From contig NZ_JTDV01000001.1 of assembly GCF_000943555.1 (NCBI RefSeq), positions 620,001-684,000 of the forward strand: a stretch of 64,000 bases of DNA, read 5' to 3'. The DNA comes from Neotamlana nanhaiensis (GTDB taxonomy: Bacteria; Bacteroidota; Bacteroidia; Flavobacteriales; Flavobacteriaceae). The notes below the pieces were generated by a model. That model saw only the letters and a list, made by a program, of their open reading frames with translations. It did no database searches and was not told where the DNA came from. Below are positions 11,254-26,716 of the stretch, in pieces; within the stretch, counting starts at the first letter, position 1, and the number at the start of each line of letters is the position of its first letter. The position numbers were made by a program, and so were the translations under genes.

Positions 11254-12657
11254 TTAATCTTTTAATTCTGAAGGATTTGAAATTGGATTAACCCCATATT
11301 TATCAAATAAATACACAAGTGAAGTCATGGTGGCTGCACCAAGTTCCAATTCGCGCTTGTTTATCGCATCGAAGGTATCGTTACTTGCATGATGATGATC
11401 GAAATAGCGTTGCGAATCTGGTCTTAAACCGCAAAGTACATTACTGTCTGTTTTTAACGGACCAACATCGGCACCACTTCCACCCTTTTCGAAAAAGTGA
11501 ATTAAATATGGTTTAAAAAGTTTTTGCCAACTCAACACTTGCTCGAAAGCCGCATCAGTACAATCGAAACTAAAACCACGTGGCGTGAATCCACCTGCAT
11601 CGCTTTCTAAAGCAAAAATGTGATTTTCGCCTTTCTGCTTAGCAACTTCGGCATATTTATTTCCGCCTCGCAATCCGTTTTCTTCGTTCATAAACAACAC
11701 CACACGAATACTTCGCTTTGGTTTTATGCCCGATTCTTTTAGTAATCGTAACACATCCATTGATTGTACAACACCAGCACCATCGTCGTGAGAGCCATCA
11801 CCTAAATCCCAAGAATCTAAATGTCCGCCAACAATCATGTATTCATTAGGAAATTCGCTTCCTGTAATTTCTCCAATAACATTATACGATTGCACATCGG
11901 CCAATTGCTTACAACTTTGTTTGAAATAAAACTGAATATTTTTATTAAGCGTAAGCATGGTACTTAACAATTCGGCATCGTTAGTACTTATTGCTGCTGA
12001 AGGAATGCGTTTGTTTGCAGGAAGATCGCCATAAGTCATACTTCCTGTGTGTGGTAAATCGTCAAGTCGTAAATTCATAGAACGTACAATAACGCCAACA
12101 GCACCATACTTTGCCGCTTCTAAAGCTCCGGCGTAACGTTGATTTACACAACCGCCATAAGCATTAAACGTTTGAATTAAATCGGCTTGCATTGGTCGAT
12201 TGTAAAACACAATTTTACCTTCAATATTTTCTTTTCCTAATTTCTCTAATTCTTCAAAATTATGAACCTCAACCACATTTGCCTTTAAACCTAAAGCAGG
12301 TGTTGCAATAGAGCCACCAAGCGCACAAATATTTACATCGGTGGTTTTTCCTGGTTTGCTTTCAATAAAGGCGTATTCTTTAGCACCACGAATCCAACGC
12401 GGTACCATTACGGGTTGTAACCACACTTTATCTAATCCCAGTTTTTCAAGTTCTTCTTTGGTGTAAGCCACCGCTTTTTCGGCACCTAATGAGCCTGATA
12501 AACGGCTTCCTATTTGATTAGAAAGATGATTTAACCAATCGTAACTTTTTCCGTTGGTTAATGATTGTGTGTAAATGGTTCGTAAAACGGTTTCGTCGGT
12601 TTGCGAAAACCCTAAAATTGAAGCGAATACTAATGTTAGTAAGGTTAGTTTTTTCAT
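11254..12657 (-). CDS. Secreted M28 family metallopeptidase with PA domain
   Basis: This zinc aminopeptidase-type enzyme is exported by a signal peptide (MKKLTLLTLVFASILGFSQ; start at 12657, with a longer start possible at 12666). Numbered from the 12666 start, a PA-like insert occupies roughly residues 125-245. The di-zinc site is recognisable: H282 and D284 in GGHLDSWD, D294/D295 in SHDDGAG, E328/E329 in NEENGLRGG, D354 in ESDAGGF, and H in HHHASNDTFD. This is the carboxypeptidase Q/aminopeptidase-like arrangement. It probably trims peptides in the periplasm. It is followed closely by the DinB-like gene. Confidence 0.9.
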   Translation of the reverse strand: MKKLTLLTLVFASILGFSQTDETVLRTIYTQSLTNGKSYDWLNHLSNQIGSRLSGSLGAEKAVAYTKEELEKLGLDKVWLQPVMVPRWIRGAKEYAFIESKPGKTTDVNICALGGSIATPALGLKANVVEVHNFEELEKLGKENIEGKIVFYNRPMQADLIQTFNAYGGCVNQRYAGALEAAKYGAVGVIVRSMNLRLDDLPHTGSMTYGDLPANKRIPSAAISTNDAELLSTMLTLNKNIQFYFKQSCKQLADVQSYNVIGEITGSEFPNEYMIVGGHLDSWDLGDGSHDDGAGVVQSMDVLRLLKESGIKPKRSIRVVLFMNEENGLRGGNKYAEVAKQKGENHIFALESDAGGFTPRGFSFDCTDAAFEQVLSWQKLFKPYLIHFFEKGGSGADVGPLKTDSNVLCGLRPDSQRYFDHHHASNDTFDAINKRELELGAATMTSLVYLFDKYGVNPISNPSELKD

Positions 12658-12913
12658 TTTTACCATATTAAACTTTAAAAATAATATTTCTGTGGATTCT
12701 ATATGGAAACACCATGCTTAAAATTGTGTTAAGACTTTTATTTTGAAAACGCTAATTCGCGCTAACGATTGCAGCGGCATCCTTTATGTAAAATCTAAAA
12801 CCCTAAAACACAGTTTTAAAACCAAATGTATTTTATAGTTCACAGCACATTATGATTAACCTCTCTTTTTACATAAAGATATAGCGGAAAGCGTGTTAAA
12901 GCGCCCAAAAGAA

Positions 12914-13765
12914 TTATTCGCTACTGAGCTGTTTTTTGTAAGCTTCGAGGTTGGCTTTGATGTCGTCGTCTAGCTCAGGCTCAACAATATCGGTGTATTT
13001 CATGAGCTCGTCGTAGATGGTTTTTGCGACAATATATCTGGCTGTAGGTTTGTCGTCGGCAGGAATGACGTACCACGGCGCATGCGGTTTCGAGGTTTTG
13101 TTGATGGCATCCTCGTAGCAATCTTGATAGGCATCCCAAAGTTTGCGCTCCTTTAAATCGCTTGGTGAAAATTTCCAGTTTTTTTCCTGTTTTTCAAGTC
13201 GACGTAATAATCGGTTTTTCTGTTCATCTTTTGATAAGTTTAGGAAGAATTTGAAAATGATGGTACCGTTTTGCGCAATGTGTTTTTCGAAATTATTAAT
13301 CTGTTCGAAACGCTGTTCCCAAAAGGCTTCGTTAACATCTTCCACCGTGTTTACATCAGGTAAATTTTCACCTAAAATGTACTCGGGATGCACGCGCGTT
13401 ACCAACACATTTTCGTAATGCGTACGGTTAAAAACGCCAAATTTACCGCGAGCTGGTAAAGCAATGTAGTGACGCCAAAGATAATCGTGATCGCGTTCTA
13501 AATCGGTTGGTACTTTAAAACTTTGCACCTCAATTCCGCGCACGTTAAACTCCTTAAAAACCTCGCGAATTAGGCTATCTTTTCCTGCCGTATCCATGCC
13601 TTGTAAACAAACCAAAACCGCATATTTATTGTGCGCATACATGGTGTTTTGCCAATCGCCAAGGTCTTTACGAACGTCTTTCAGCTTTTTCTTGGCGTCG
13701 TCTATAACAACTTTGGTTTCAAAATCCTTTAAGGCTATGGGTTTGGATACTTTGTAATCGCTCAT
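12914..13765 (-). CDS. ppk2: Polyphosphate kinase 2 family protein
   Basis: This 283-residue cytosolic enzyme transfers phosphate between polyphosphate and nucleotides. The Walker A loop is GMDTAGKD (residues 56-63). The lid and Walker B region is visible as GVFNRTHYENVLVTRVHPEY, and ALPARGKFGVF and LRRLEKQEKNWKFSPSDLKER are typical of the group annotated as polyphosphate:nucleotide phosphotransferase. The preference for AMP, ADP or GDP cannot be decided from sequence. It is 54 nt downstream of the haloperoxidase operon and codes in the same direction, but its housekeeping role suggests separate transcription. Confidence 0.93.
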   Translation of the reverse strand: MSDYKVSKPIALKDFETKVVIDDAKKKLKDVRKDLGDWQNTMYAHNKYAVLVCLQGMDTAGKDSLIREVFKEFNVRGIEVQSFKVPTDLERDHDYLWRHYIALPARGKFGVFNRTHYENVLVTRVHPEYILGENLPDVNTVEDVNEAFWEQRFEQINNFEKHIAQNGTIIFKFFLNLSKDEQKNRLLRRLEKQEKNWKFSPSDLKERKLWDAYQDCYEDAINKTSKPHAPWYVIPADDKPTARYIVAKTIYDELMKYTDIVEPELDDDIKANLEAYKKQLSSE

Positions 13766-13819
13766 GTTTGTTTTTATTGCTAAAGATAAGCAAACTGATT
13801 TGGCTATAAAAACGATTTG

Positions 13820-16800
13820 TTAATTGCCTAAAACCACAATTTTACTAAACTTGCTATCTATTTTTAAAATATAAATTCCTGAAGCGGTGCCTTGCGGAAG
13901 ACTAACTGTTGATGACTTTGTGTTTTCGTTGAAGTTGTTTTTCAAATCTTGAAGCAATCCGCCGTTGGCATCGAAAAGCTGAATTTGAGTGGTTTCTGAA
14001 GTGTTAGTGATACTCAACTCTTGATGTGTTGCAATTGGATTTGGATAAATTTTAACTTCGGAAGTATTGGGTTTCGGATTTTCATTTCCGTTTGAAGCTT
14101 TAAAATAAGCGGAAGCAAACGCGAAAGCTTCTTTACCAATTTTTTCGCCAATTATGCGTCCTTGAATATCATCGGCTGGTGGATGAATGCCACCCCAAAT
14201 TCGTGATAAACTACATTGATCGGAAGCATCTTGATAAGTTGCCCATTGTAATTTCACATCAACCGATGGCCCTTCTTCAAACACTAAAAACTCATTTTGT
14301 TTGGCAATAAATTCGCCCATTCCTCCTGGAAAATATTTGGTTCCTGTAATAGCAGTTAACACTTCTGCCGCCGCTCTAGAATAAGTAGAATGCCCTGACA
14401 CAAACCCTGCAAACGGTGGTGTTACGAAGGTTGGACGCTGATATGGCCACCAGTTTTCGGCTAAAATCCACCCTACTCCTGCTTGATCGGTTTCTGGGTT
14501 AAAAATTCCGCTATGTCCTAACCAGGTGTAGAGTTTTATTTTACCTACATGCTCGTTATTTTCGGCTGCCAAAGCATCGTTTTCAGTTATAACTTCAATA
14601 TAACCTTCATCTAAAGGAACTCCATTAGGGTGATAATTTGATAGCGAAGGATTTGAACTCTGACCGATTTCCGCCATATAACGAATTGCCGAAATTGGGC
14701 GAATATAATCATACCAACCTTTGATGCTCCAAGCCGAAATAGCCGCATCATGCATCGCTCCTCCTAAAATAAAATAGGACTTTACATCCCATTCTAAATT
14801 AGAAATAATAGCGCCTTCCCCTGCAAAACGTTTTTCAAACTGTTCGTGGTCGTTTACATAATTTAAAATGGTAAACCAATGTCCTGGAGGTGTTTCGGAA
14901 TCTGGACCGTCTGCCCAAAATTCGGCTAAAACTCTGGTATAATCGCCTCTAGGAACCATTTGCGATTCGTAAGGATGTTGGGTTACAGGGTTTAGGTTGT
15001 AACCCGTTCCTATATCGCCGCCTTCGTATTCATTGTAAAAATCAGGATAATCGTTGTATGATTGTGGTAATGCTTCCAATGAAATATTACCCATAGATTT
15101 TGGCGAAATATCCCAAACAACACCATCGTTTGGTGTATGATGCGATGCCCATTTTGAGACTAATGCAAATCCCCATTTGTAGTTGTCGTCTTCTATGGTT
15201 GGTGGTGCTTCGGGGTTGTGATAGACGTGATAGTTATTTCCGTTTCTAGTGAATGTTGTTTTATCGGTTTCTGTAAGTGAAAAGGGCTCAACATTACCCC
15301 ATTCTGGACTTAAAAAGTCTGGTGTAACACCACCTATTACGTTTCCTGCCTGATCGATAAACGTATTAAAACTTAATGGTTGCCAACGATTCGGATTAAT
15401 TTCAAGCATGCTTGATGGTGTGTCGAGTAACAAAGCCTCATTTACGGGTTGATAATAATCATTATTATATTCATTTGCTTCGTTTGCGCCATCTTGCAAA
15501 CCATAAGCTATAATTTGTTCGGCGATATAATTCCCAAGCGCTATTGGATCTCCTATGGTATAATTGGTATTGGTTATCGTGGTATCATAACCCAATTGTT
15601 GCATTGCTTCATCTAAAATACTTTTAGACAAAGTTGGGTTTGGTGCATTTTTAAACCGAGAGACCAACAAACGATACATGGCGTAACTTATGGTTTTATC
15701 GATTGCTTCTTCCTTGGGTTCTGTGGTTTCAAAACCTTCAAAATTACTATTAAAATCGTGTACCTCATTTCCAATTAAATATGGTTGCGATGATTCATTA
15801 TAAATCGCCCAAGCATCGTACATGGTCACACTAGAATGAAATAAATTACGAGCGTGAACCGTTGGTCGCGCATAATCCTTTCGGATGAGTTCTAATAACG
15901 TCTCATTCCAAATTCTCGCAATGGAGTGTGTTTCGATAACCCTATCTTCTTCAAAAAGCGTCACATCCAAAATTACTGGCGAACTGGTGCAGTTTTCATT
16001 ATTTGCAATGAGACTTACTTGTCCGTTTTCACCATTTCCCCATTGTACCACAATGGTATTATTGTTTTCTTCAAGAACTTCACCACCAGTAACCATCCAA
16101 GTTAATTCAATTTCGGAATCGAATGTATATGTGTAACTTTCAATACTATTTTTATACACTTGATTTACACCGGAAATAGCAGCGGTACTTAAAAAATTGC
16201 AATCTCCCGTGCTAATTGTTGCATAAGGATTATAATTACAAGCACTCGCATTAGTGCAACCATACACCTTTTTACTTGGCTCAGGATTGATTACTTGGTA
16301 TCCGTTATTTTCAATAGCCAAAATATTGGTATTAGCCGCAATATTGTTATGGGTTTCCACAATTCCTGAAGGCCATTTTATGGTAAGTTCTAATATTTCG
16401 GTATCGGCTCCTAAACCAAAATGTACCGGTTTTAAATGTTGCGATAAAAAGCCTTTTCCTGTGTAAAACCGGTGTAATGTACCGCTTGCCGTAGTTACAG
16501 AAACTGTTGTTCCTACTGCATCACGGTTTGAGGTTGTACCTTGTAACTTTACTTTAAACCAATTTACAATGGGATTTGGTTGTGTAAAATCCGTTGTTTT
16601 ATTTTCGTAGAAAAACGAGGTTCTATCATTATTGGTTACAAATATGTCGAGGTCGCCATCGTTATCATAATCGAAAACAGCTTCGGTAACACTTATCGCT
16701 TCATCGTTTAAACCGGTAGCTTCAGAACTGTTTTTAAAACCTTCGCTTCCTAATTCTAATAAGTTTTCGAAATACACATTGTGTCTGTCGCCCGAATTTG

Positions 16801-17845
16801 GGTAATCAAATCCATTGACTATAAATAAATCTTCATCGCGATCTAAATCGAAATCAGAAAAAGACACATCCCAAGCCCAACCTGCATTGTAAATATTAAA
16901 GGTTCGTGCCATCTCCTCAAAACTATTATTTTCGGTTTGCTTCATGAGCACATTATCTCCAATGGTTGTCACATAAATATCGAATTTACCATCGTTGTTA
17001 TAATCGCCAATGGTAACACCCATATCGCCTTTAGAAGTATCTAAACCGTAACCTGCGGCGTGTTCGGTAAAGCTTTCACCTTGGTTATTAATGAAAAGTT
17101 CGTTTGGCCCAGGAATAAAATCGTTTGCGAGATACAAATCTAACCAACCATCATTATTAAAATCGAATGGAATACTTTGGTAAGAATGCTTGCTATCCAC
17201 ATTTTGGATGATGCGACTTTCGTTTGAAAACGTGCCATTACCATTGTTTTTATACAATCTATTTCCTTCGCAATCGCTGTCCCAATCGGCAACGAAAATA
17301 TCTAGAAGTCCGTCGTTATTATAATCAAACCACGTGGCACCTGTATTGATGCAATCGTTGTATTTTTTAAAACCCGCTTGCGTCGTTACTTCGGTAAATG
17401 TGCCATCTTGATTATTATGAAACAACTGCATTTTATTGGTATGCGTGAAGAAAATATCGGGAAAACCATCGTTATCATAATCGCCCCAAAACGCCCCAAA
17501 TTTAAACCCCGTAAATGCAATAGACACCTCGCCTGTTTCTTCCTCGGGAAATAAATTTTCGAGTCCAGAACCTTCCGTCACGTTTGTAAAAGTACCATCG
17601 TTGTTGTTTTGGAATAACTTGCTATGCGTTACCTTAACATTTGCAACATCTTGCGCTTTGGCAACCACAAACATATCGATATCGCCATCGGCATCAAAAT
17701 CGGCCACAGCAACACCATTATTTTGTTCCACAAGGCTTAATCCTGCATAGTTTTCGATGCGTTGGAATGTTTGCGCTGTTAATTTGCGTACACTGCACAC
17801 AACAAGCACCACAATTACAGGAATTATAAAAAGTTTCTTTTTCAT
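13820..17845 (-). CDS. FG-GAP/ASPIC + vanadium haloperoxidase-like fusion, T9SS type A (copy 2)
   Basis: This is a secreted ~1341-residue protein. In order it has: a signal peptide; FG-GAP/VCBS repeats to about residue 430 with many DxDxDGxxD calcium loops (DFDADGDIDMF, DYDNDGFPDIF); an ASPIC/UnbV domain (~445-515, FGLGADTEILELTIKWPSG); a short GCTNASACNYNPYA element; an Ig-like domain (~560-650); and a vanadium haloperoxidase/PAP2 helical domain (~660-1250). Vanadate-pocket motifs are present: YDYIRPISAIRY, FVSGHSTYSRAA and SRIWGGIHPPADD. It ends in a T9SS type A sorting domain (KIYPNPI...). The ATG at 17845 is preferred over 17872 because it begins the signal peptide directly. It is a tandem paralogue of its upstream neighbour, 16 nt away, and the last gene of a four-gene operon. 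Whether it is a haloperoxidase or an acid phosphatase is not decided by sequence. Confidence 0.88.
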   Translation of the reverse strand: MKKKLFIIPVIVVLVVCSVRKLTAQTFQRIENYAGLSLVEQNNGVAVADFDADGDIDMFVVAKAQDVANVKVTHSKLFQNNNDGTFTNVTEGSGLENLFPEEETGEVSIAFTGFKFGAFWGDYDNDGFPDIFFTHTNKMQLFHNNQDGTFTEVTTQAGFKKYNDCINTGATWFDYNNDGLLDIFVADWDSDCEGNRLYKNNGNGTFSNESRIIQNVDSKHSYQSIPFDFNNDGWLDLYLANDFIPGPNELFINNQGESFTEHAAGYGLDTSKGDMGVTIGDYNNDGKFDIYVTTIGDNVLMKQTENNSFEEMARTFNIYNAGWAWDVSFSDFDLDRDEDLFIVNGFDYPNSGDRHNVYFENLLELGSEGFKNSSEATGLNDEAISVTEAVFDYDNDGDLDIFVTNNDRTSFFYENKTTDFTQPNPIVNWFKVKLQGTTSNRDAVGTTVSVTTASGTLHRFYTGKGFLSQHLKPVHFGLGADTEILELTIKWPSGIVETHNNIAANTNILAIENNGYQVINPEPSKKVYGCTNASACNYNPYATISTGDCNFLSTAAISGVNQVYKNSIESYTYTFDSEIELTWMVTGGEVLEENNNTIVVQWGNGENGQVSLIANNENCTSSPVILDVTLFEEDRVIETHSIARIWNETLLELIRKDYARPTVHARNLFHSSVTMYDAWAIYNESSQPYLIGNEVHDFNSNFEGFETTEPKEEAIDKTISYAMYRLLVSRFKNAPNPTLSKSILDEAMQQLGYDTTITNTNYTIGDPIALGNYIAEQIIAYGLQDGANEANEYNNDYYQPVNEALLLDTPSSMLEINPNRWQPLSFNTFIDQAGNVIGGVTPDFLSPEWGNVEPFSLTETDKTTFTRNGNNYHVYHNPEAPPTIEDDNYKWGFALVSKWASHHTPNDGVVWDISPKSMGNISLEALPQSYNDYPDFYNEYEGGDIGTGYNLNPVTQHPYESQMVPRGDYTRVLAEFWADGPDSETPPGHWFTILNYVNDHEQFEKRFAGEGAIISNLEWDVKSYFILGGAMHDAAISAWSIKGWYDYIRPISAIRYMAEIGQSSNPSLSNYHPNGVPLDEGYIEVITENDALAAENNEHVGKIKLYTWLGHSGIFNPETDQAGVGWILAENWWPYQRPTFVTPPFAGFVSGHSTYSRAAAEVLTAITGTKYFPGGMGEFIAKQNEFLVFEEGPSVDVKLQWATYQDASDQCSLSRIWGGIHPPADDIQGRIIGEKIGKEAFAFASAYFKASNGNENPKPNTSEVKIYPNPIATHQELSITNTSETTQIQLFDANGGLLQDLKNNFNENTKSSTVSLPQGTASGIYILKIDSKFSKIVVLGN

Positions 17846-17861
17846 ATAAAAACCAACTCGG

Positions 17862-20800
17862 TTACTTTTCAATAATTACGATTTTATCGGATTGATTATT
17901 GGTTTTCAATATATAAATTCCTGCCGACAATGTTTTAGAAAAATTCAATTCTGTAATTCGGTTAGATTCTGAATAGGTCTTAACAGGAATTTGCAATAAT
18001 CTTCCGTTTAAATCGAATATTTTAAATTCATCATTAGCGTTGGTATTTGATACGAATAATTTATTTGACGCCAATAGCGGATTTGGATAAACAATCCGTT
18101 TCATTGAAGGTTCCTCTTGAATATTTTCGGACTTTGAAAAATATTGCGTTGCAAAATGAAACGCTTCAATCCCCACTTTTTCTCCAATTTTTCTACCCGG
18201 AATATCATCGGCAGGAGGATGAATACCGCCCCAAATTCGTGATAAACTACATTGATCTGATGCATCTCGATAGGTTGCCCATTGTAATTTTACATCAACC
18301 GATGGGCCTTTTTCAAAAACTAAAAAATCATCTTTTTTGGCCACAAATTCTCCCATACCTCCAGGAAAATAAGCGCTTCCAGTAAGCAAAGTTAAAACTT
18401 CGGCCGCAGCTCTAGAAAATGTAGAGTGCCCAGAAACATAACCCGCAAATGGTGGTGTTACAAAGGTTGGGCGTTGGTATGGCCACCAGTTTTCGGCTAA
18501 AATCCAACCCACACCAGCAACATCTTCGTCAGGATTATCAATAAAATTATGACCTCTCCATGCGTAGAGTTTAATTTTTCCAACATGCTCGTTATTTACA
18601 CCTGCTAAAACATCATTTTCGCCTACAATCTCAACCAAACCATGCTGTAAATGAATTCCAGATGTACTGTAATTTGGCAAACTAGTATCGGTACACTGCC
18701 CCATTTCGCACATATAGCGAATGGCCGAAATTGGCCTAATATAATCATACCAACCTTTAACGCCCCAGGCAGCTACAGCGGCATCGTGCATGGCGCCACC
18801 TAAAATAAAATATGATTTAACGTCCCATTCCAAATCGCTTAAAATATCGCCTTCTCCTTCAAAACGTTTCTGCAATAATTCATGATCGTTTACATAATTT
18901 AAAATAGTAAACCAATGCCCTGGTGGTGTTTCGGAGTCTGGTCCATCTGCCCAAAATTCGGCTAGAATTCTTGTATAATCACCTCTTGGAACGACTTGCT
19001 CTTGATAAGGCAATAAGGTTATTGGGTTAATATCATGTCCTTTTCCTATGTCGCCACCTTCAATTTCATTGTAGAATGAAGGATAATCATTGAATGATTC
19101 TGGGAAATCATTACTACTGATATTCCCCATAGATTTTGGTGAGATATCCCATAACACACCATCATCAGGATTTAATTGCGCACTCCACTTAGAAACCAGT
19201 GAAAAGCCCCATTTATAATCGTTAGAATCGTTGTAAGGCGGTTCGCCTGGGTTGTGATAAACTTGGTAGTTATGACCAGATCGATTAAAAGTGGTTTTAT
19301 CATCTTTTGATAAAGAAAAAGGCTGCACATTCCCCCATTCTGGACCTAAAAAATCTGGCGTAACACCACCAATAACATTGCCGCTTTGGTCGATAAAATT
19401 ATTAAAGCTCAATGGTTGCCAACGATTGGGATTGATATTTTCAATAGCTTCTGGATAAGACAAGCTCAATGCTTCGTTTACCGGTTGATAGTATTTATTT
19501 TGATACTGATTAGCTTCATTACTACCATCTTGCATACCAAACGTAATAATTTGAGAAGCAATGTAATTTCCTAGTGCTGCTGGATCTCCTGTACTGTAAT
19601 CTGTGGTTGTGATAGAAATATCGTAACCCAATGCTGCCATAATTTCATCTAAGATGTTTTGGGCAAGCGCAGGATTAGGCGCATGTTTAAATCGATGTGA
19701 TAACAACGTGTAAGCTGCGTAACTAATGGTTTGCTTTTCGGCTTTAGCTTTTGTTTCTTCCGTAGTAAAACCTTCAAAATCGGATTGAAAAGCACCTACA
19801 TTTTGCCCTAGAATATACGGTGATGCATTATCGTTGTAAACCGCCCAAGCATCGTACATAGCCACACTGGTATGAAACAAATTTCGGGCGTGTACTGTTG
19901 GCCGCGCGTAATCTTTTCTTATTAATTCTAATAAAACTTCATTCCATAATCGTGCTACCGATTGCTCTCTGAAATCGACATCATATTCGGATAGCTTTAC
20001 AGTTAAATCGACCGATTTACTAATACATTTTGAATTTTTAACAACCACTGAAACTTTACCCGTACTGCCTCTTCCCCATTTTACAATGATGGAACCATTA
20101 TTCTGCTCCTCTAAAATCTCTCCACCGGTTACCTGCCATGTAAGCGATTCGTTCTCAGAAAACGGATAACTATACGACTCTACACTACCATAAAAAGCCT
20201 TAACAGTTCCTGTTATTTTCTTCGTTTTTAAATAATTGCATTTGCCTGTACTTGTGGTTGCAAAAGGATTATAATTACATGAATTCTCATCGGTGCAACC
20301 ATAAGGTTTCACACTTGGTTCAATATCTAATATTTGAAAACCATTACCTTCAATGGCTAAAATGGTATTGTTTGCAGCAATATTTTTGTGAGTTTCAATT
20401 AAACCTGAAGGCCATGTAATGGTAAGTTCTAAAATTTCATTGTCTGTACCTAAACCAAAATGCACGGGTTTTAAATGTTGACCTAAAAAGCCTTTCCCAG
20501 TATAAAATCGCGTTAAAAAACCAGTTGCAGTCTTTATAAAAACTTTTGTACCAATGGCATCTCGATTTGATGTTGTTCCTTGCAGTTTTACTTTAAACCA
20601 ATTTAAGTTTTCTGCAGGTTGAACAAAATCGGTGATTTTATTTTCGTAGAGGTAAGATGGTCCATCGTTATTGGTTACAAAAACATCTAAATCGCCATCG
20701 TTATCAAAATCGAAAACGGCTTCACTAACGCTAATTGTTGCTTCTCCTAAACCAACCGCTTCAGAACTATTTACAAGCGTAGATTTAAAATTTTCTAATT

Positions 20801-21899
20801 GATTTTTATAATAAGTGTTTACATATTTTCCAGAACTCCCAAACTCGAAACCATTGAGTACCAATAAATCTTCATCACGATCTAAATCGAAATCAGCAAA
20901 ACGTGCATCCCAAGCCCAACCTGTATTGTAAACTCCTAACGATCGGCCTAAATTAACATAAGTATTATTACCTTGATTTTCGAATAACTGATTGTCGCCA
21001 ATAGCGGTTACGTAAAAATCGAACGCACCATCTCCATTGTAATCGCCAATAGCAATGCCCATGTCGTCTTTGGCATAATCTAAACCATAACTCGCAGCGC
21101 TTTCGGTAAAACCATTACCTTGATTGTTGATGTATAAATCGTTGGTTTCATCGGAATAATCGTTAGCAACATACAAATCCATCCATCCGTCGCCATTAAA
21201 ATCGAATGGTATACTTTGGTAAGAATGTTTGTTTTTTGTTACTCCCGAAATGATACTCGTAACATTGGTAAAAGTACCGTTTTGATTATTTCTGAAGAGT
21301 CGATTACCATCATAATCTGATCCCCAGTCTGACATGTAAATATCTAAAAAGCCATCATTATTATAATCGAACCAGGTTGCGCCAGTATTAATATTTCTGT
21401 TGAATTTACTGAAACCCGCTTGAAGGGTAACATCTTTAAACGTACCGTTTTTTTCGTTGTGAAAAAGTTGAATTTTAAAGGTATTTGTTAGGAATAAATC
21501 AGGATAACCATCATTATCATAATCGCCCCAGAATGCACCAAATTTGTGGCCATTTAAAGCATCTGTATACTCGGATTCTTCGGTTGTTGGAAATAAATTT
21601 ACTAAACCTGAATTTGCCGTAATGTCGGTAAAAGTACCGTCATTATTATTTCTAAATAATTTACTCTGTGTTTTTTCACTAGTGCTTTGGTCTTGAGCTT
21701 TGGCAACAACAAATAAATCTAAATCGCCATCGGCATCAAAATCGGCAAGTGCACAACCGTTGTTTTCTTGTAAAAGATTTAATCCCGCATAAGCCTCAAC
21801 GCGATCAAATTTTTGGGCATACAAAACGCTGTTGGCTCCTAAGATTAGAAAGCCAATAAATAAGGTGGTGGTGAGTAATGCCTTATTTTTAGCCCACAT
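17862..21899 (-). CDS. FG-GAP/ASPIC + vanadium haloperoxidase-like fusion, T9SS type A (copy 1)
   Basis: At 1345 residues, this has the same architecture as the next gene: signal peptide (ending SVLYAQ), FG-GAP calcium-loop repeats (DFDADGDLDLF, DYDNDGYPDLF), ASPIC/UnbV (HFGLGTDNEILELTITWPSG), GCTDENSCNYNPFA, Ig-like domain, haloperoxidase/PAP2 domain with YDYIRPISAIRY, YVSGHSTFSRAA and SRIWGGIHPPADD, and type A sorting domain (RIVYPNPLL). The catalytic halves are nearly identical between the copies while the linkers differ, indicating an old tandem duplication under selection. It starts 6 nt after DUF2264 ends, so it is in the same operon as polysaccharide-active genes. In known family members vanadate enzymes halogenate or dephosphorylate; the partner substrate here is unknown. 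Confidence 0.88.
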   Translation of the reverse strand: MWAKNKALLTTTLFIGFLILGANSVLYAQKFDRVEAYAGLNLLQENNGCALADFDADGDLDLFVVAKAQDQSTSEKTQSKLFRNNNDGTFTDITANSGLVNLFPTTEESEYTDALNGHKFGAFWGDYDNDGYPDLFLTNTFKIQLFHNEKNGTFKDVTLQAGFSKFNRNINTGATWFDYNNDGFLDIYMSDWGSDYDGNRLFRNNQNGTFTNVTSIISGVTKNKHSYQSIPFDFNGDGWMDLYVANDYSDETNDLYINNQGNGFTESAASYGLDYAKDDMGIAIGDYNGDGAFDFYVTAIGDNQLFENQGNNTYVNLGRSLGVYNTGWAWDARFADFDLDRDEDLLVLNGFEFGSSGKYVNTYYKNQLENFKSTLVNSSEAVGLGEATISVSEAVFDFDNDGDLDVFVTNNDGPSYLYENKITDFVQPAENLNWFKVKLQGTTSNRDAIGTKVFIKTATGFLTRFYTGKGFLGQHLKPVHFGLGTDNEILELTITWPSGLIETHKNIAANNTILAIEGNGFQILDIEPSVKPYGCTDENSCNYNPFATTSTGKCNYLKTKKITGTVKAFYGSVESYSYPFSENESLTWQVTGGEILEEQNNGSIIVKWGRGSTGKVSVVVKNSKCISKSVDLTVKLSEYDVDFREQSVARLWNEVLLELIRKDYARPTVHARNLFHTSVAMYDAWAVYNDNASPYILGQNVGAFQSDFEGFTTEETKAKAEKQTISYAAYTLLSHRFKHAPNPALAQNILDEIMAALGYDISITTTDYSTGDPAALGNYIASQIITFGMQDGSNEANQYQNKYYQPVNEALSLSYPEAIENINPNRWQPLSFNNFIDQSGNVIGGVTPDFLGPEWGNVQPFSLSKDDKTTFNRSGHNYQVYHNPGEPPYNDSNDYKWGFSLVSKWSAQLNPDDGVLWDISPKSMGNISSNDFPESFNDYPSFYNEIEGGDIGKGHDINPITLLPYQEQVVPRGDYTRILAEFWADGPDSETPPGHWFTILNYVNDHELLQKRFEGEGDILSDLEWDVKSYFILGGAMHDAAVAAWGVKGWYDYIRPISAIRYMCEMGQCTDTSLPNYSTSGIHLQHGLVEIVGENDVLAGVNNEHVGKIKLYAWRGHNFIDNPDEDVAGVGWILAENWWPYQRPTFVTPPFAGYVSGHSTFSRAAAEVLTLLTGSAYFPGGMGEFVAKKDDFLVFEKGPSVDVKLQWATYRDASDQCSLSRIWGGIHPPADDIPGRKIGEKVGIEAFHFATQYFSKSENIQEEPSMKRIVYPNPLLASNKLFVSNTNANDEFKIFDLNGRLLQIPVKTYSESNRITELNFSKTLSAGIYILKTNNQSDKIVIIEK

Positions 21900-21905
21900 C
21901 GTGGT

Positions 21906-23915
21906 TTAAAAATTAATAGTTTTAGTTAGTTGGTTCTTAAAATTAATATATATTGCGTTATCGCCCAATATTTCGATATTTTTTAATGGAAAAAGGTCGT
22001 TTTTAGTCCATTTTTCACCAGATTTTTTCCAAAGCATCAATGTGGCGTACACTTTGTTTGCATCGCTATCAGTTTCGGATTTTGTAACGTTAATTACAGC
22101 GCTTTCGTTACTTTCTGGATGCAAACCTGTTGTGAGTACAACTTCGGTTTTATCCCAACCTAATACTGGAATCATCGCTAATTGATAACTTCCATTATCG
22201 ATTATTGTAGCTTCATAACCTTTAACCTTTTTCGTGGTTACTTTTATACCTGCTTCAAATTTTGGCAAAGCGTAATGCCCTAAGCGTATATCTAATGGTT
22301 TATCACTTACATTTCTATCGACTCTTAAAATACCATTTGCTAAAGGAATATCTACAAGGTTAAATTTGATGGACTCATCAGTTTCTAAAACAACATCACG
22401 GAAATACATGCCATCTTCAAAACGTTTAAAATCGTATAGCCTAAATGCTTCCCACGCTTTATTTTTGTTTTTAATGAGATAGTTCATAGCTACTTCTCCA
22501 TCTTCGCCATCAGCCTGCCAAGGAAACGCACTGTTGTATGACAGACGATTATAATTTTCGGTAGAACGGAATTTTTGCCAATCATCTTTAACCTTTTCGT
22601 GGCACCACGCTCTAATTTCTGAAGCACCAATATTAGGATAATCGGTTATTAAAATTTCTGAAGCCTCTTGGAATTTATTGTAAACGTTATCTTTTTTAAG
22701 CTCATCTTCCCATGCGCCGTTATTTTCGGTGGCTGTCCAAAATGGATTATCATCTGGCACTAACAAACCTAAAAAGGCTTTTCCCATCCAATATACACTT
22801 CCGCGGCAGCTGTAATTTTGCACTGCGGGTTCGAACGCGCCATAAAACCCTAAGGTTGGCACGTTATCTTTTATAAAATCGGGATGCGTAAAAAATTGTT
22901 TAATGACGCCTGACGAAATACGTCGCATCCAACCGTAATTGATCGTATCATCATCTTGAAAGCCCATTAAAGGAAACGGAATTACAGAACCTATACGGTA
23001 GCTTATACTGCGCCCATACATAATCATTTTTCCATCTTTACTGAATAAATACGGGTAATTATCTTTTAAATCCTCAAAATTGTTAATGAATTTTTCTGCG
23101 ATTTCTGGATAGTATTTTTTACCAAAATATTCCGACCACACCATGCCATACATTTGGAATGCCCACATGCTGTAATAATCGTAGGCAGGACTATCGTTGT
23201 ACCAACCTTGTCCGCGATAATGTGTTAAAGAACGCTCTAAATACTCAACCAACAATTTTTCGTTGACTTTGTAACCTTGCTCTTTAAAAAAACTTAAAAC
23301 GAAAATATTGAAGAATTTCCAGTTAGAATCTACCGTTGGCCCATCGCCATAACTCAGCATAATTTTTGATAAAGCCGCCTTTTGATCGTCTGGTAACGGG
23401 TGCCACAACACCTCTGGATTGATTAACATCGATACGGCTAATGCCCCAAACTCTACTAAGTTTTGACTTGGCCCACCATTTTTTGATCGTGGTACTATGT
23501 ACGAAGGACTTTCAGGATTTGCCAACAACCCGATTTGATAACGGTAATAATCAGCAACCTTAATATTGTTTATGGTTAAATCTGGATTTTCCTTTAACAA
23601 TGGCGCCGCCACAAATAACGTTCTGCATAAACCTTCTAATTTTTCTGTCGGTACTCTGCCCTCATCATGCGGATAACTTTTACCAGGTTGCTTCGGAAAC
23701 TTCATTGGGTCATCCAAAGTATTTATGTAACTAAAAGCACCTTTTAATAAATACATTGCGGCATCTTCCCAGTGCTGCTTCGTCATTCCTGTGTGCGGAC
23801 TTAACTTATAATCGGGATTGTTTATTTGAAAGGGCTCTAATTCCTTTTGAGCAAATCCATAAAAATTCACGCTAAGTAATACCAATAAAAAAAGTAGGTT
23901 CTTGTTTAAATTCAT
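21906..23915 (-). CDS. DUF2264 domain protein (possible family GH154-type glycosidase)
   Basis: The product has 669 residues with a cleavable signal peptide (NLLFLLVLLSVNFYGFAQ). The first ~370 residues form the DUF2264 (alpha/alpha)6-type domain: HWEDAAMYLLKGAF, EGRVPTEKLEGLCRTLFVAAPLL, NLVEFGALAVSML, GWYNDSPAYDYYSMWAFQMYG and YGRSISYRIGSVIPFPLMG. The C-terminal ~270 residues are beta-rich. DUF2264 proteins recur in polysaccharide loci, and I recall a link to CAZy family GH154 (glucuronidase activity), but I am not certain of that mapping. It sits 8 nt after the upstream hydrolase and 6 nt before the haloperoxidase fusions, clearly in one operon. There is no sorting domain, so a periplasmic location is likely. 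Confidence 0.8.
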   Translation of the reverse strand: MNLNKNLLFLLVLLSVNFYGFAQKELEPFQINNPDYKLSPHTGMTKQHWEDAAMYLLKGAFSYINTLDDPMKFPKQPGKSYPHDEGRVPTEKLEGLCRTLFVAAPLLKENPDLTINNIKVADYYRYQIGLLANPESPSYIVPRSKNGGPSQNLVEFGALAVSMLINPEVLWHPLPDDQKAALSKIMLSYGDGPTVDSNWKFFNIFVLSFFKEQGYKVNEKLLVEYLERSLTHYRGQGWYNDSPAYDYYSMWAFQMYGMVWSEYFGKKYYPEIAEKFINNFEDLKDNYPYLFSKDGKMIMYGRSISYRIGSVIPFPLMGFQDDDTINYGWMRRISSGVIKQFFTHPDFIKDNVPTLGFYGAFEPAVQNYSCRGSVYWMGKAFLGLLVPDDNPFWTATENNGAWEDELKKDNVYNKFQEASEILITDYPNIGASEIRAWCHEKVKDDWQKFRSTENYNRLSYNSAFPWQADGEDGEVAMNYLIKNKNKAWEAFRLYDFKRFEDGMYFRDVVLETDESIKFNLVDIPLANGILRVDRNVSDKPLDIRLGHYALPKFEAGIKVTTKKVKGYEATIIDNGSYQLAMIPVLGWDKTEVVLTTGLHPESNESAVINVTKSETDSDANKVYATLMLWKKSGEKWTKNDLFPLKNIEILGDNAIYINFKNQLTKTINF

Positions 23916-23923
23916 GTTTTTGA

Positions 23924-26716
23924 TTAATGTTTAACTACAAATTTCTTTTTAACGGAAACACCTTTATTTTCAATTTCTAAAACGTAGATGCCCGATGACA
24001 TTTGCGCAGTATTCACTACAAAATGATCAGAATTTGTAATTTTTGTTTCTTGTAATTTTACACCTCTAATATCGGTAATTTTAATATTAACCGTATTTAA
24101 TTTTAAGTTTGATTTATTTATTTTAACATGTAAAGCATCATCTGAAGGCACAGGGTAAACACCAATAGCATCTTCCAACTTAGTAGTATTTACAGATAAA
24201 GTTCCTGCTGCCAATGCTTCCACTTGTGCTGGAGATAAAGCGTAGTTATATACTCTAAAATCGTCTACACTACCATTTAATAACGGATCTGGAAATTGAC
24301 TTCGACCAATATAATTTAATGCTGGTTTAATATTTAATGGGCTACCAAAAGCACTGGTAGATTGCGCTACTTGCTGACCATTTACATATAAAACCACACC
24401 GCTAGTACTAATGGTTACAGCCACATGTGTCCACTCGCCTGTTGGTAATACCGACGACTCTATAAACTGTTCGCCGCTGCCTATTTTCATGCCAAAGCGT
24501 AAAGTTCCAGCTCCAGAACTTGGTGTTAAAAATAAATATTCGTTCGTGTTATTACCAAAATCGAAAATGCGTTGCCACGCGCCGCCGCCATTCCAATTTA
24601 CCCACGTTGCCATTGTTAGTTCCTGGTGGCTTGCAATATCTGGCGGTAATTGCACAAAAGCATCAGAACCATTAAGTGTTATAGCTTGCGATTCGTTTTC
24701 GCTAGTTTCAAAAGATATAGTTCCTGCAGTTGCCGCATGATTTAAGTTTGTAGATGCATCTTGTGTATTGTTTTCAAAATTAAACTGAGCAACCAAACTT
24801 TGCGCTCCAGAAGCAGTTCCCGACGTGACATTTGAATATTCCGAACGGTTTAAAGAACCATCGATAGCCTTAATTTTATAAAAATAGTTTATACCTGAAA
24901 GTGCGGTATTATCTATAAACGCGGTGTTAGTAACCGTTCTTGCAATGGTATTGTACGCGCCGTTTTCAGCTTCCGCTCTATAAATATGATAACCTGCAAC
25001 ATCGGTTTCGGGGCTTGCATCCCAATCTAATCTTACAGAAGTGGGTTGTACCGTAGCCTCTAAATTAGTTGGTGCACTTGGCGCATCAAATTCTATAGGT
25101 GCATCAACTGGTAAAAAACGCCATTCTTGGTTGGCTCCTCCATTTTTTTCCCACTGAACAATATTTGCACCTGCATTTGTTCCTGCTTGATAAACGTCAA
25201 TACAATGCGAACTTTCTCGGCTTCTTATTAAAAACCAGCCATCAGATTGGTAATCGAGATACCATTGTTGGTTTCCGCCATTGGCTTGCGTCCATAAATG
25301 AATGTTTCCACCGTTATCTAAGGAAAAGTTATTGACATCTAACGATCGATTGGCATCCGAAAGCACCTTAATTCTGTAATAACTAAAATCGCCACCAATA
25401 TCAATCGGTACAGGTACGACGGTAAATTTTTGACTGCTTGAACCTACGTAATTATTTTGACGAACGTTAGCGCCATCACCAGATCCGCTAACCTCCATGA
25501 CCAAGCCACTATTTTTGTTTACGATTTTGTATTCGCCATTTATTTCTGGCTGAACATCTTCGCCCCAAGATATATTTACCACACGTTCTGCATTTCGTTG
25601 AAGTGCTGTTTGGTAAGCTCCATTTGGGTCTGCTGGTAACTCCATAACATATTCTCGCTGTGGCCCAACACCATCGTAATACACCACTCTATCTTTCGAT
25701 AAAAAAGTATAATTTGTTGGTCTTGCTTGCCTTTCGGAAGTACCACCAAAAGCTTGTACTTTTCCATTTGTATGACGATATACCGAAGCGGAAGTCCAAT
25801 TTGGACGATGTTCGGCATACCCTAAACGAACGCCATCACTAGCTTTTACAAACTCACCACGAGCAAGTTCTGCAGTGCCCCACCAAATACCTGTTTGTAA
25901 ACCGTACTCTACACCAACCATGGCTTCCATAACATTATGAAGCTCGTCGTTAGTAGCATGATTACCATCTGAACTTACCGTTTGAAAAAAGTTGGCGTAA
26001 TTATCGAAACTTCCTGCTAATTGATGGGTATTGCCTTCATCTAACCGAGTTTTTAAATAATTATACCAATTTAAGGCTTCATCTGTATTAAGTGTATTAC
26101 CTCCAGAAACTCTAATATTATCGAAGTACGAATTACTTTTTAACTGCCCGCAAATATTATAAAAATCTTGCATGGTTCCTTGTCCCGTATTTGTAAAATC
26201 TGGTTCGTTAAAAGGAGATACTGTAACAATATTAAAGCCTTCGGCTTCATGCATTTGTGCTGTAACCTCAATTAATTTCGCCCAATTTGCCGCATTACCT
26301 TTAAAATAATCGTTAACACTTGGATGATCGGAATTTAAAACCACATTTGTTCCAGCGCCCAAATTATTTTTAATAATGTCTATTCTTAAATTTGTATTTG
26401 TTAAAGCATCACCTTGAAGTGTCTCATCATTTAATAAAGGTTGTGTTGGCATAAATGATGAACGGATAACATCCACATTATTGGCCTCCATAAAAGCCAT
26501 ACCACGAATAATATTTCTCTCGGATAACCATGCTAAATCTAAACCCCAAGTAATTGGTTTTGCAATACCTGTAGCTTCTACATTAAACACTATGGAACGG
26601 TCTGAAATAGGTTGAGCCTTTAAATTATCGCTTGCGCTCGACACTTGCGAATAGCTTGATTTCATCACAAAAGTTAAAGCCATAAAAAGCAAAGTTGCTT
26701 TAAAATGAATATTCAT
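23924..26716 (-). CDS. Multimodular secreted clan-A-like glycoside hydrolase (ricin, FN3, LamG, T9SS type A)
   Basis: This 930-residue protein is the first gene of its operon. After a signal peptide, residues ~35-390 look like a TIM-barrel hydrolase: VSPFNEPDF places E171 as a candidate acid/base in the NEP motif, with E264 or E270 (NVMEAMVGVEYG) as candidate nucleophiles. The fold and motif recall GH30/GH5-like enzymes, but I cannot assign a family. Then follow a ricin-type beta-trefoil (~395-535, QW repeats), an FN3 domain (~545-635), a LamG/concanavalin-like domain (~640-835), and a T9SS type A sorting domain (VYPVPSDDAL onward). Several binding modules suggest action on insoluble or branched glycan. 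The promoter region carries the direct repeats, the -7 box and the palindrome described separately. Confidence 0.75.
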   Translation of the reverse strand: MNIHFKATLLFMALTFVMKSSYSQVSSASDNLKAQPISDRSIVFNVEATGIAKPITWGLDLAWLSERNIIRGMAFMEANNVDVIRSSFMPTQPLLNDETLQGDALTNTNLRIDIIKNNLGAGTNVVLNSDHPSVNDYFKGNAANWAKLIEVTAQMHEAEGFNIVTVSPFNEPDFTNTGQGTMQDFYNICGQLKSNSYFDNIRVSGGNTLNTDEALNWYNYLKTRLDEGNTHQLAGSFDNYANFFQTVSSDGNHATNDELHNVMEAMVGVEYGLQTGIWWGTAELARGEFVKASDGVRLGYAEHRPNWTSASVYRHTNGKVQAFGGTSERQARPTNYTFLSKDRVVYYDGVGPQREYVMELPADPNGAYQTALQRNAERVVNISWGEDVQPEINGEYKIVNKNSGLVMEVSGSGDGANVRQNNYVGSSSQKFTVVPVPIDIGGDFSYYRIKVLSDANRSLDVNNFSLDNGGNIHLWTQANGGNQQWYLDYQSDGWFLIRSRESSHCIDVYQAGTNAGANIVQWEKNGGANQEWRFLPVDAPIEFDAPSAPTNLEATVQPTSVRLDWDASPETDVAGYHIYRAEAENGAYNTIARTVTNTAFIDNTALSGINYFYKIKAIDGSLNRSEYSNVTSGTASGAQSLVAQFNFENNTQDASTNLNHAATAGTISFETSENESQAITLNGSDAFVQLPPDIASHQELTMATWVNWNGGGAWQRIFDFGNNTNEYLFLTPSSGAGTLRFGMKIGSGEQFIESSVLPTGEWTHVAVTISTSGVVLYVNGQQVAQSTSAFGSPLNIKPALNYIGRSQFPDPLLNGSVDDFRVYNYALSPAQVEALAAGTLSVNTTKLEDAIGVYPVPSDDALHVKINKSNLKLNTVNIKITDIRGVKLQETKITNSDHFVVNTAQMSSGIYVLEIENKGVSVKKKFVVKH

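Follow-up and report, generated by a model that had tools for sequence, protein, structure and literature searches.

Two tandem genes of Neotamlana nanhaiensis, here called A and B, encode large fusion proteins in which a CRTAC1-like propeller precedes a predicted vanadium haloperoxidase (VHPO). They lie in a 64,000-nucleotide stretch of contig NZ_JTDV01000001.1 (positions 620,001 to 684,000; hereafter the window). The account that best explains the whole is a surface-displayed, oxidant-making VHPO whose variable propeller aims it and which came to be recruited into a glycan locus, and we judge the case for it to be evenly poised. Three bodies of evidence bear on it: the predicted structures of the two halves, the history of their pairing, and the pattern of variation between copies.

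A and B share one domain order, consisting of an FG-GAP propeller, an ASPIC/UnbV domain, a Cys/Ig linker, a VHPO domain and a type A sorting tail of the type IX secretion system (T9SS). Each exceeds the Pfam cut-offs for FG-GAP_3, UnbV_ASPIC, DUF6851, VCPO_2nd and Por_Secre_tail, and each carries seven DxDxDGxxD-type motifs. The sorting tail exceeds the cut-offs of both Pfam PF18962 and TIGR04183, and among NCBIfam models it is the only part matched. A first-pass annotation of this DNA had described two tandem fusions of about 1340 residues, joining propeller repeats, ASPIC/UnbV, a vanadate domain and a T9SS tail, with B starting 6 nt behind a DUF2264 gene; the open reading frames, Pfam and TIGR04183 bear out the architecture, and the DUF2264 gene lies where it was placed. 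Its label "vanadate/PAP2 domain" holds as to the VHPO fold and the complete vanadate site, but the Pfam matches are DUF6851 and VCPO_2nd, not PAP2. We infer signal peptides from the hydrophobic N-termini, and both proteins are predicted T9SS-exported cargo. The two reading frames overlap by 11 nt if A starts at its TTG, and are separated by 16 nt if it starts at the ATG at 17845. The proteins are 64% identical overall (propeller 63%, ASPIC 78%, Cys linker 58%, Ig-like domain 47%, VHPO 71%, sorting tail 30%). Beyond A and B we found no further full fusion copies and no further ASPIC domains in the genome. Chance or mis-annotation was rejected as an explanation, given complete open reading frames and full-length orthologues in many genomes.

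Predicted fold and vanadate-site residues support the identification of the C-terminal half as a vanadium-dependent haloperoxidase. An AlphaFold2 model of the VHPO domain (pLDDT 87.7) best matches XhnO11 (9l8x; Z 30.0, rmsd 2.8, 427 residues aligned), followed by NapH1 (3w35, Z 29.9), NapH3 (29.6) and the Zobellia iodoperoxidase (4usz, 28.9). The whole-domain structural matches are VHPOs, with Z scores of 23–30 over 382–437 residues, whereas acid phosphatases cover about 200 residues, in the core, at a Z of about 13. Against the bacterial VHPOs (NapH1 3w35/3w36, XhnO11 9l8x, Zobellia 4cit/4usz) nearly the whole domain shares the fold (Z 28.8–30.0), and the vanadate motif stretches align, in sequence with 4cit; A and B differ from them in a longer domain and in the fused propeller, ASPIC, Ig-like domain and sorting tail. 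The Curvularia chloroperoxidase (Z about 23) and algal bromoperoxidases (about 10–11) belong to the same superfamily but lack a propeller or ASPIC domain, and the algal forms align over part of the domain only. The vanadate-site residues K, R, S-G-H, R and H are kept in all 43 aligned sequences, which include A and B themselves (R1221 in 42, with an X in one). Trp and Phe residues beside the motifs are likewise invariant (43 of 43). In the Curvularia enzyme, Lys353, Arg360, Arg490 and His496 are active-site residues according to the title of a reference cited in PMC11871015.

The N-terminal half, an FG-GAP propeller followed by a UnbV_ASPIC domain in both A and B, has the arrangement by which the CRTAC1/ASPIC family is recognized. 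Its model (pLDDT 92.6) matches CRTAC1 (9etn) with Z 40.8 and rmsd 2.5 over 453 residues at 20% identity, and seven Ca-type motifs mark seven propeller blades. What sets A and B apart from CRTAC1 is the VHPO, covalently joined here and sometimes encoded beside the propeller gene elsewhere. Across 30 fused N-halves, with loop bounds set by hand from the structure model, conservation was 0.80 in the Ca motifs, about 0.58 in the strands and 0.48 in the CD loop, and fell to 0.38 in the BC loops and 0.33 in the DA loops, the most variable parts of the propeller. VCBS-type propellers include sugar-binding fungal lectins, according to a passage of PMC8023676.

The fusion is not an oddity unique to this genome, a possibility we rejected, as it occurs in 48 of 397 genomes of its own family (54 genes; six of the 48 genomes with two copies), counted by hand as a match running from residue 199 or earlier into the tail. 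In that family, 108 genomes have a match at 1e-100 or better. Among 395 genomes of its own phylum, 22 carry a close full-length VHPO, 9 more carry remote ones only, and two (G000 and G226; G and L are our handles for genomes and loci) carry the fusion. Tandem fusions occur in G000 and G608. Since at most two candidates were scored per genome, copy numbers are minima; a third copy was found in G608 and G412. Plasmids yielded six matches, all below 60% identity, and phages none. The named loci are the best 80 of at least 580 relatives, 34 fused and 46 single; L051 is counted as single only because its contig begins within the gene, and the gene of L091 is split over two frames.

Trees of both halves are most simply explained by a single fusion event between two genes that had been separate. 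In a midpoint-rooted tree of 89 VHPO domains, 37 fused rows fall in one clade (SH-aLRT 98) with three single rows inside, among them the single VHPOs L075 and L119 (G088); the remaining 49 rows are all single. The tree of the propeller side, with 73 N-halves, places 36 of the 37 fused rows in one group (95) whose sister (98) consists of 14 separate ASPIC proteins; the two make up a joint clade (98). The separate ASPICs in this tree had been fetched partly for high scores. All 14 come from VHPO-bearing genomes. Just outside the joint clade L034 forms a long branch, and seven ASPICs from VHPO-less genomes also lie outside (7 of 8 such loci were taken, L030 having failed the length or score limit).

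In other Bacteroidota the two halves are separate genes that sometimes keep company. Within the 395-genome sample, every one of the ten non-fused genomes whose ASPIC half scores over 190 bits carries a VHPO, and the best VHPO-less genome reaches 182 bits (hypergeometric 8.6e-15, with kinship ignored and the cut-off set after seeing the scores). Five of the 20 non-fused genomes (G077, G093, G158, G191, G231) have an ASPIC gene on the VHPO's own strand and within 3 kb of it, against an expectation of 0.23 (P about 1.4e-6; four of the five were known before the test). L073 and L083 have these genes in the order SusC-SusD-ASPIC-VHPO, and L105 and L065 have looser arrangements of it.

VHPOs have other partners as well. 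A 1740-residue frame in a Saprospiraceae locus (L109:8561-13780) places FG-GAP repeats with no ASPIC match before a VHPO of the non-fused clade and looks like a join made independently. VHPOs are joined to MopE-type metal-binding repeats in L095:9893-13069 and L137:6922-9660, and to leucine-rich-repeat and Ig domains in L093:8651-12142. In G045 (L136:6656-14359), two adjacent VHPOs of 1080 and 1302 residues have long extensions before the sorting tail with no other Pfam match above cut-off, and a third VHPO lies elsewhere in the genome.

We compared close copies and found that the propeller looks exchangeable on a near-constant enzyme. The two tandem copies of G608 share every nucleotide of codons 361 to 1263 (B numbering), a 2.7-kb stretch with zero differing codons, and switch abruptly at codon 360/361 to 66% protein identity over residues 29–360; the identical stretch may be an assembly artefact. 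G774, of the same genus, has a single fusion copy in a like locus. Its VHPO is 89% identical to that of G608 and its propeller 63–64%, with the junction at the start of the VHPO domain. Among the neighbours, two GH43 genes (86% each) and a GH2 gene (92%) are close, and SusC (60%), SusD (51%) and the next gene (42%) are divergent. Synteny was looked at for this same-genus pair. Given as loci, L150 against L139, SusC, SusD and the next gene stand at 42–60% and three glycoside hydrolase (GH) genes at 86–92%. Across 11 close comparisons (VHPO identity at least 79%), the propeller lags by more than 20 points in three: the G608 pair, G608/G774 and G226/G716, two of which share G608. This set omits the identical pair G435/L044 and counts the two G608 copies against G774 once; G711, cut by a contig end, was set aside in the analysis of copies.

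The reverse pattern occurs too, with A sharing 80% of its propeller with L033 and G506 and just 69–70% of its VHPO. L033 itself looks mosaic, A-like to about B residue 400 and B-like beyond. The grouping of its N-half with A is supported (alternatives AU p <0.01), and that of its VHPO with B is not settled (p 0.07 and 0.10). The first-pass annotation had taken near-identical catalytic halves and different linkers in A and B to suggest functional division. For A and B the premise of near-identical catalytic halves is wrong, their VHPO halves being 71% identical, and there is no sign of ongoing gene conversion between them. It is literally true of the G608 tandem, which thereby lends indirect support to a functional division between tandem copies, located in the propeller rather than the linker.

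A and B sit among carbohydrate genes, as the phrase "inside a polysaccharide operon" had claimed, and such genes recur around close relatives, but the setting is not general. The window region encodes GH43, GH2, GH16-like, GH27-like, GH29, GH31 and GH51-like enzymes. As in typical SusC/SusD polysaccharide utilisation loci, SusC, SusD, a hybrid sensor and many glycoside hydrolases are co-located in the region; it differs from them in its two predicted oxidant-making enzymes and in the distance of about 45 kb between SusC/SusD and A/B. SusD, SusC and the hybrid sensor lie about 45–60 kb upstream of A/B, beyond the window and with GH genes between; SusD and SusC are at about 45–50 kb, compared with about 9–14 kb upstream of the tandem in G608. 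There the order is SusC-SusD-...-GH43-GH43-ricin/LamG-fusion-fusion-GH2-GH29, labelled by similarity to window proteins. In L033 (Aestuariibaculum marinum), GH43, GH27-like, GH43, DUF2264 and fusion genes are contiguous. Polysaccharide-type neighbours recur in L033, L038, L139, L142, L143, L144 and L150; whole-genome loci were chosen by interest, and their gene maps are no unbiased counts (L033 equals L141 in sequence, L103 equals L118, and G691 carries the L033 sequence).

The first-pass annotation had suggested a survey of neighbours and had said that neighbours not conserved in other genomes would refute its reading; this refutation goes halfway, with glycan neighbours recurring in the window's subclade and something else found across the family. 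A housekeeping block of pyruvate-dehydrogenase-type, M28 peptidase, SDR and related genes is common to 14 of the 34 named fused loci, or 16 by a looser rule, and to none of the 46 single loci. SusD matches in the fetched flanks number 3 of 35 fused and 4 of 52 single loci, both lower bounds with queries drawn from the window locus, L034 and L037; all four single loci with a SusD match also contain an ASPIC gene. We therefore rejected glycan context as a general rule, and support for a glycan-locus role extends no further than the window's subclade.

Some individual loci and neighbours are of interest in themselves. In L041, a locus of a Seonamhaeicola metagenome-assembled genome, two fused VHPO genes cut by the locus ends flank SusC, SusD and a 596-residue gene. 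In L034 the fused VHPO has a very divergent propeller and is directly followed by an AhpC/thioredoxin-like gene and a second gene of the same cluster (12098-14491). On the strand of gene A, 54 nt beyond its end, lies a PPK2 polyphosphate kinase gene (window 12914-13765), and the DUF2264 gene starts 8 nt after the ricin-B/LamG gene. Scans for promoter-like sites (59, versus 51.3, sd 5.6, in shuffles) and terminator-like sites (9, versus 12.6, sd 3.6) were uninformative. Coordinates are collected in Table 1.

Table 1. Features of the two fusion genes and their upstream neighbours, in window positions.
Feature	Position	Strand	Remarks
Gene B	17862..21899	(-)	FG-GAP/ASPIC-Ig-VHPO fusion, 1345 aa, ATG start
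B propeller, seven-bladed FG-GAP, seven DxDxDG-type motifs	20580..21815	(-)	aa 29-440
B ASPIC/UnbV domain	20340..20579	(-)	aa 441-520
B Cys-rich linker and Ig/PKD-like domain	19974..20339	(-)	aa 521-642; Ig/PKD is our own label, no Pfam match
B VHPO domain	18114..19973	(-)	aa 643-1262
B vanadate motif 1, KGWYDYIRP	18732..18758	(-)	K1048, R1055
B vanadate motif 2, VSGH	18426..18437	(-)	S1156, G1157, H1158
B vanadate motif 3, SRIWGGIHPPAD	18207..18242	(-)	R1221, H1227
B T9SS type A sorting tail	17865..18113	(-)	Pfam, TIGR04183
Gene A	13820..17872	(-)	Second fusion; 1350 aa with TTG start, 1341 aa with ATG start (17845)
A propeller	16541..17773	(-)	Pfam, motifs
A ASPIC/UnbV domain	16301..16540	(-)	Pfam
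A Cys linker and Ig-like domain	15938..16300	(-)	Bounds set by neighbouring domains
A VHPO domain	14078..15937	(-)	Pfam
A vanadate motif 1	14696..14722	(-)	Alignment
A vanadate motif 2	14390..14401	(-)	Alignment
A vanadate motif 3	14171..14206	(-)	Alignment
A T9SS sorting tail	13823..14077	(-)	Pfam, TIGR04183
DUF2264 gene	21906..23915	(-)	Directly upstream of B; same neighbour in L033, L038, L142
Ricin-B/LamG gene with T9SS tail	23924..26716	(-)	Next upstream; also upstream of fusion in L139, L142

Considering how these parts could work together, we propose that each gene yields a two-part protein that the T9SS exports, to stay on the surface or be released. The VHPO half would use H2O2 to oxidise halide to hypohalite, and the propeller and ASPIC half would aim the enzyme at, or dock it on, a glycan, a glycoprotein, an outer-membrane partner or another such target. 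We assign the aiming role to the N-half because it is paired with VHPO repeatedly, is linked to SusC/SusD and seems to have had its propeller exchanged. In this lineage the fusion would have been recruited into a polysaccharide locus, where the two tandem copies would bring the same chemistry to a different target each. More tentatively, we suggest a modular Bacteroidota surface system in which a CRTAC1-like propeller, paired or fused with a VHPO and sometimes accompanied by SusC/SusD, targets local hypohalite; recombination would swap the propeller between copies and strains, and gene conversion could hold the catalyst constant, giving many targets.

A different role for the same surface chemistry is general oxidative or halide defence, which we regard as somewhat unlikely. 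A surface VHPO would consume H2O2 from algae or rivals and make antimicrobial or signal-modifying hypohalite, with the glycan locus a convenient site of induction and the propeller an anchor or shield varied by phage or other attack. The housekeeping setting of 14 (or 16) of the 34 fused loci fits this, as does the upregulation of Zobellia vIPO3 with Ascophyllum described in a passage of PMC9296495. So does the G608/G774 comparison, where divergence of the N-half is accompanied by that of SusC, SusD and the next gene, with three GH genes staying at 86–92%, as expected for attacked surface parts. What speaks against defence is that linkage to glycan loci and SusC/SusD recurs, both within the subclade of the window and for some non-fused pairs. 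Another possibility is oxidative depolymerisation of glycans or phenolics, with hypohalite made near the cell cutting or modifying polymers for glycan use. A and B do lie beside GH43, GH2, GH27-like, GH29 and lectin-like genes, but we found no precedent in a limited literature search and the glycan context is not general, and we consider this improbable. We find it just as hard to credit a phosphatase or other non-halogenating enzyme of VHPO fold, whose substrates would be phosphorylated glycans or metabolites. The core does align with acid phosphatases, and PDB 3bb0 is an apo-chloroperoxidase with a trapped phosphate intermediate; the VHPO matches are nonetheless far above the phosphatase ones, and the Trp and Phe by the motifs are invariant.

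Several observations weigh against an aimed haloperoxidase recruited to glycan loci. We infer catalysis and halide use in the fusion subfamily from models whose closest solved structures are 21–25% identical to the VHPO half, and one of these structures, NapH3, equally close in fold, is titled a VHPO homolog catalysing a rearrangement. The structure models are of the two halves taken separately. Eight of the 11 close comparisons keep the propeller within 9 points of the VHPO, with no exchange, and two of the three positives involve G608. Half of the non-fused VHPO genomes (10 of 20) have no ASPIC belonging to the paired subfamily, no match came from three further species sampled in the same genus, and the housekeeping block is common to many fused loci. 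The VHPO-adjacent ASPICs of L083, L065, L061, L105, L103 and L087 belong to other ASPIC lineages; the two genes thus seem to have been brought together repeatedly.

As far as we found, the modular propeller-VHPO system proposed here from sequence has no earlier description. In a search largely without subscription papers, no paper found combined haloperoxidase with FG-GAP or with CRTAC1, and none treated DUF2264. The words "haloperoxidase" and "aspic" co-occur in PMC11758815 and PMC8203638, whose titles point to a review on metal ions and a study of mouse lactoperoxidase, and "unbv" is absent among the matches listed in a further search. Matches pairing vanadium haloperoxidase with polysaccharide utilization, or haloperoxidase with SusD, are not about one locus as far as their excerpts show, and PMC11433219 makes no mention of Bacteroidota-type terms. 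Iodine uptake by Arenibacter C-21 needed glucose, oxygen and calcium, and a haloperoxidase was proposed; the genome holds at least five relatives of the Zobellia enzyme (both from a portion of PMC5064120).

If the proposal is true, targeted halogen chemistry sits on the surface of marine glycan degraders, and a binding cassette is exchanged on a fixed oxidant-making enzyme. The implications reach beyond these bacteria. ASPIC/CRTAC1-type proteins occur from bacteria to mammals, and to our knowledge little is known of their function. An evolutionary link to haloperoxidase would give them a concrete, testable lead.

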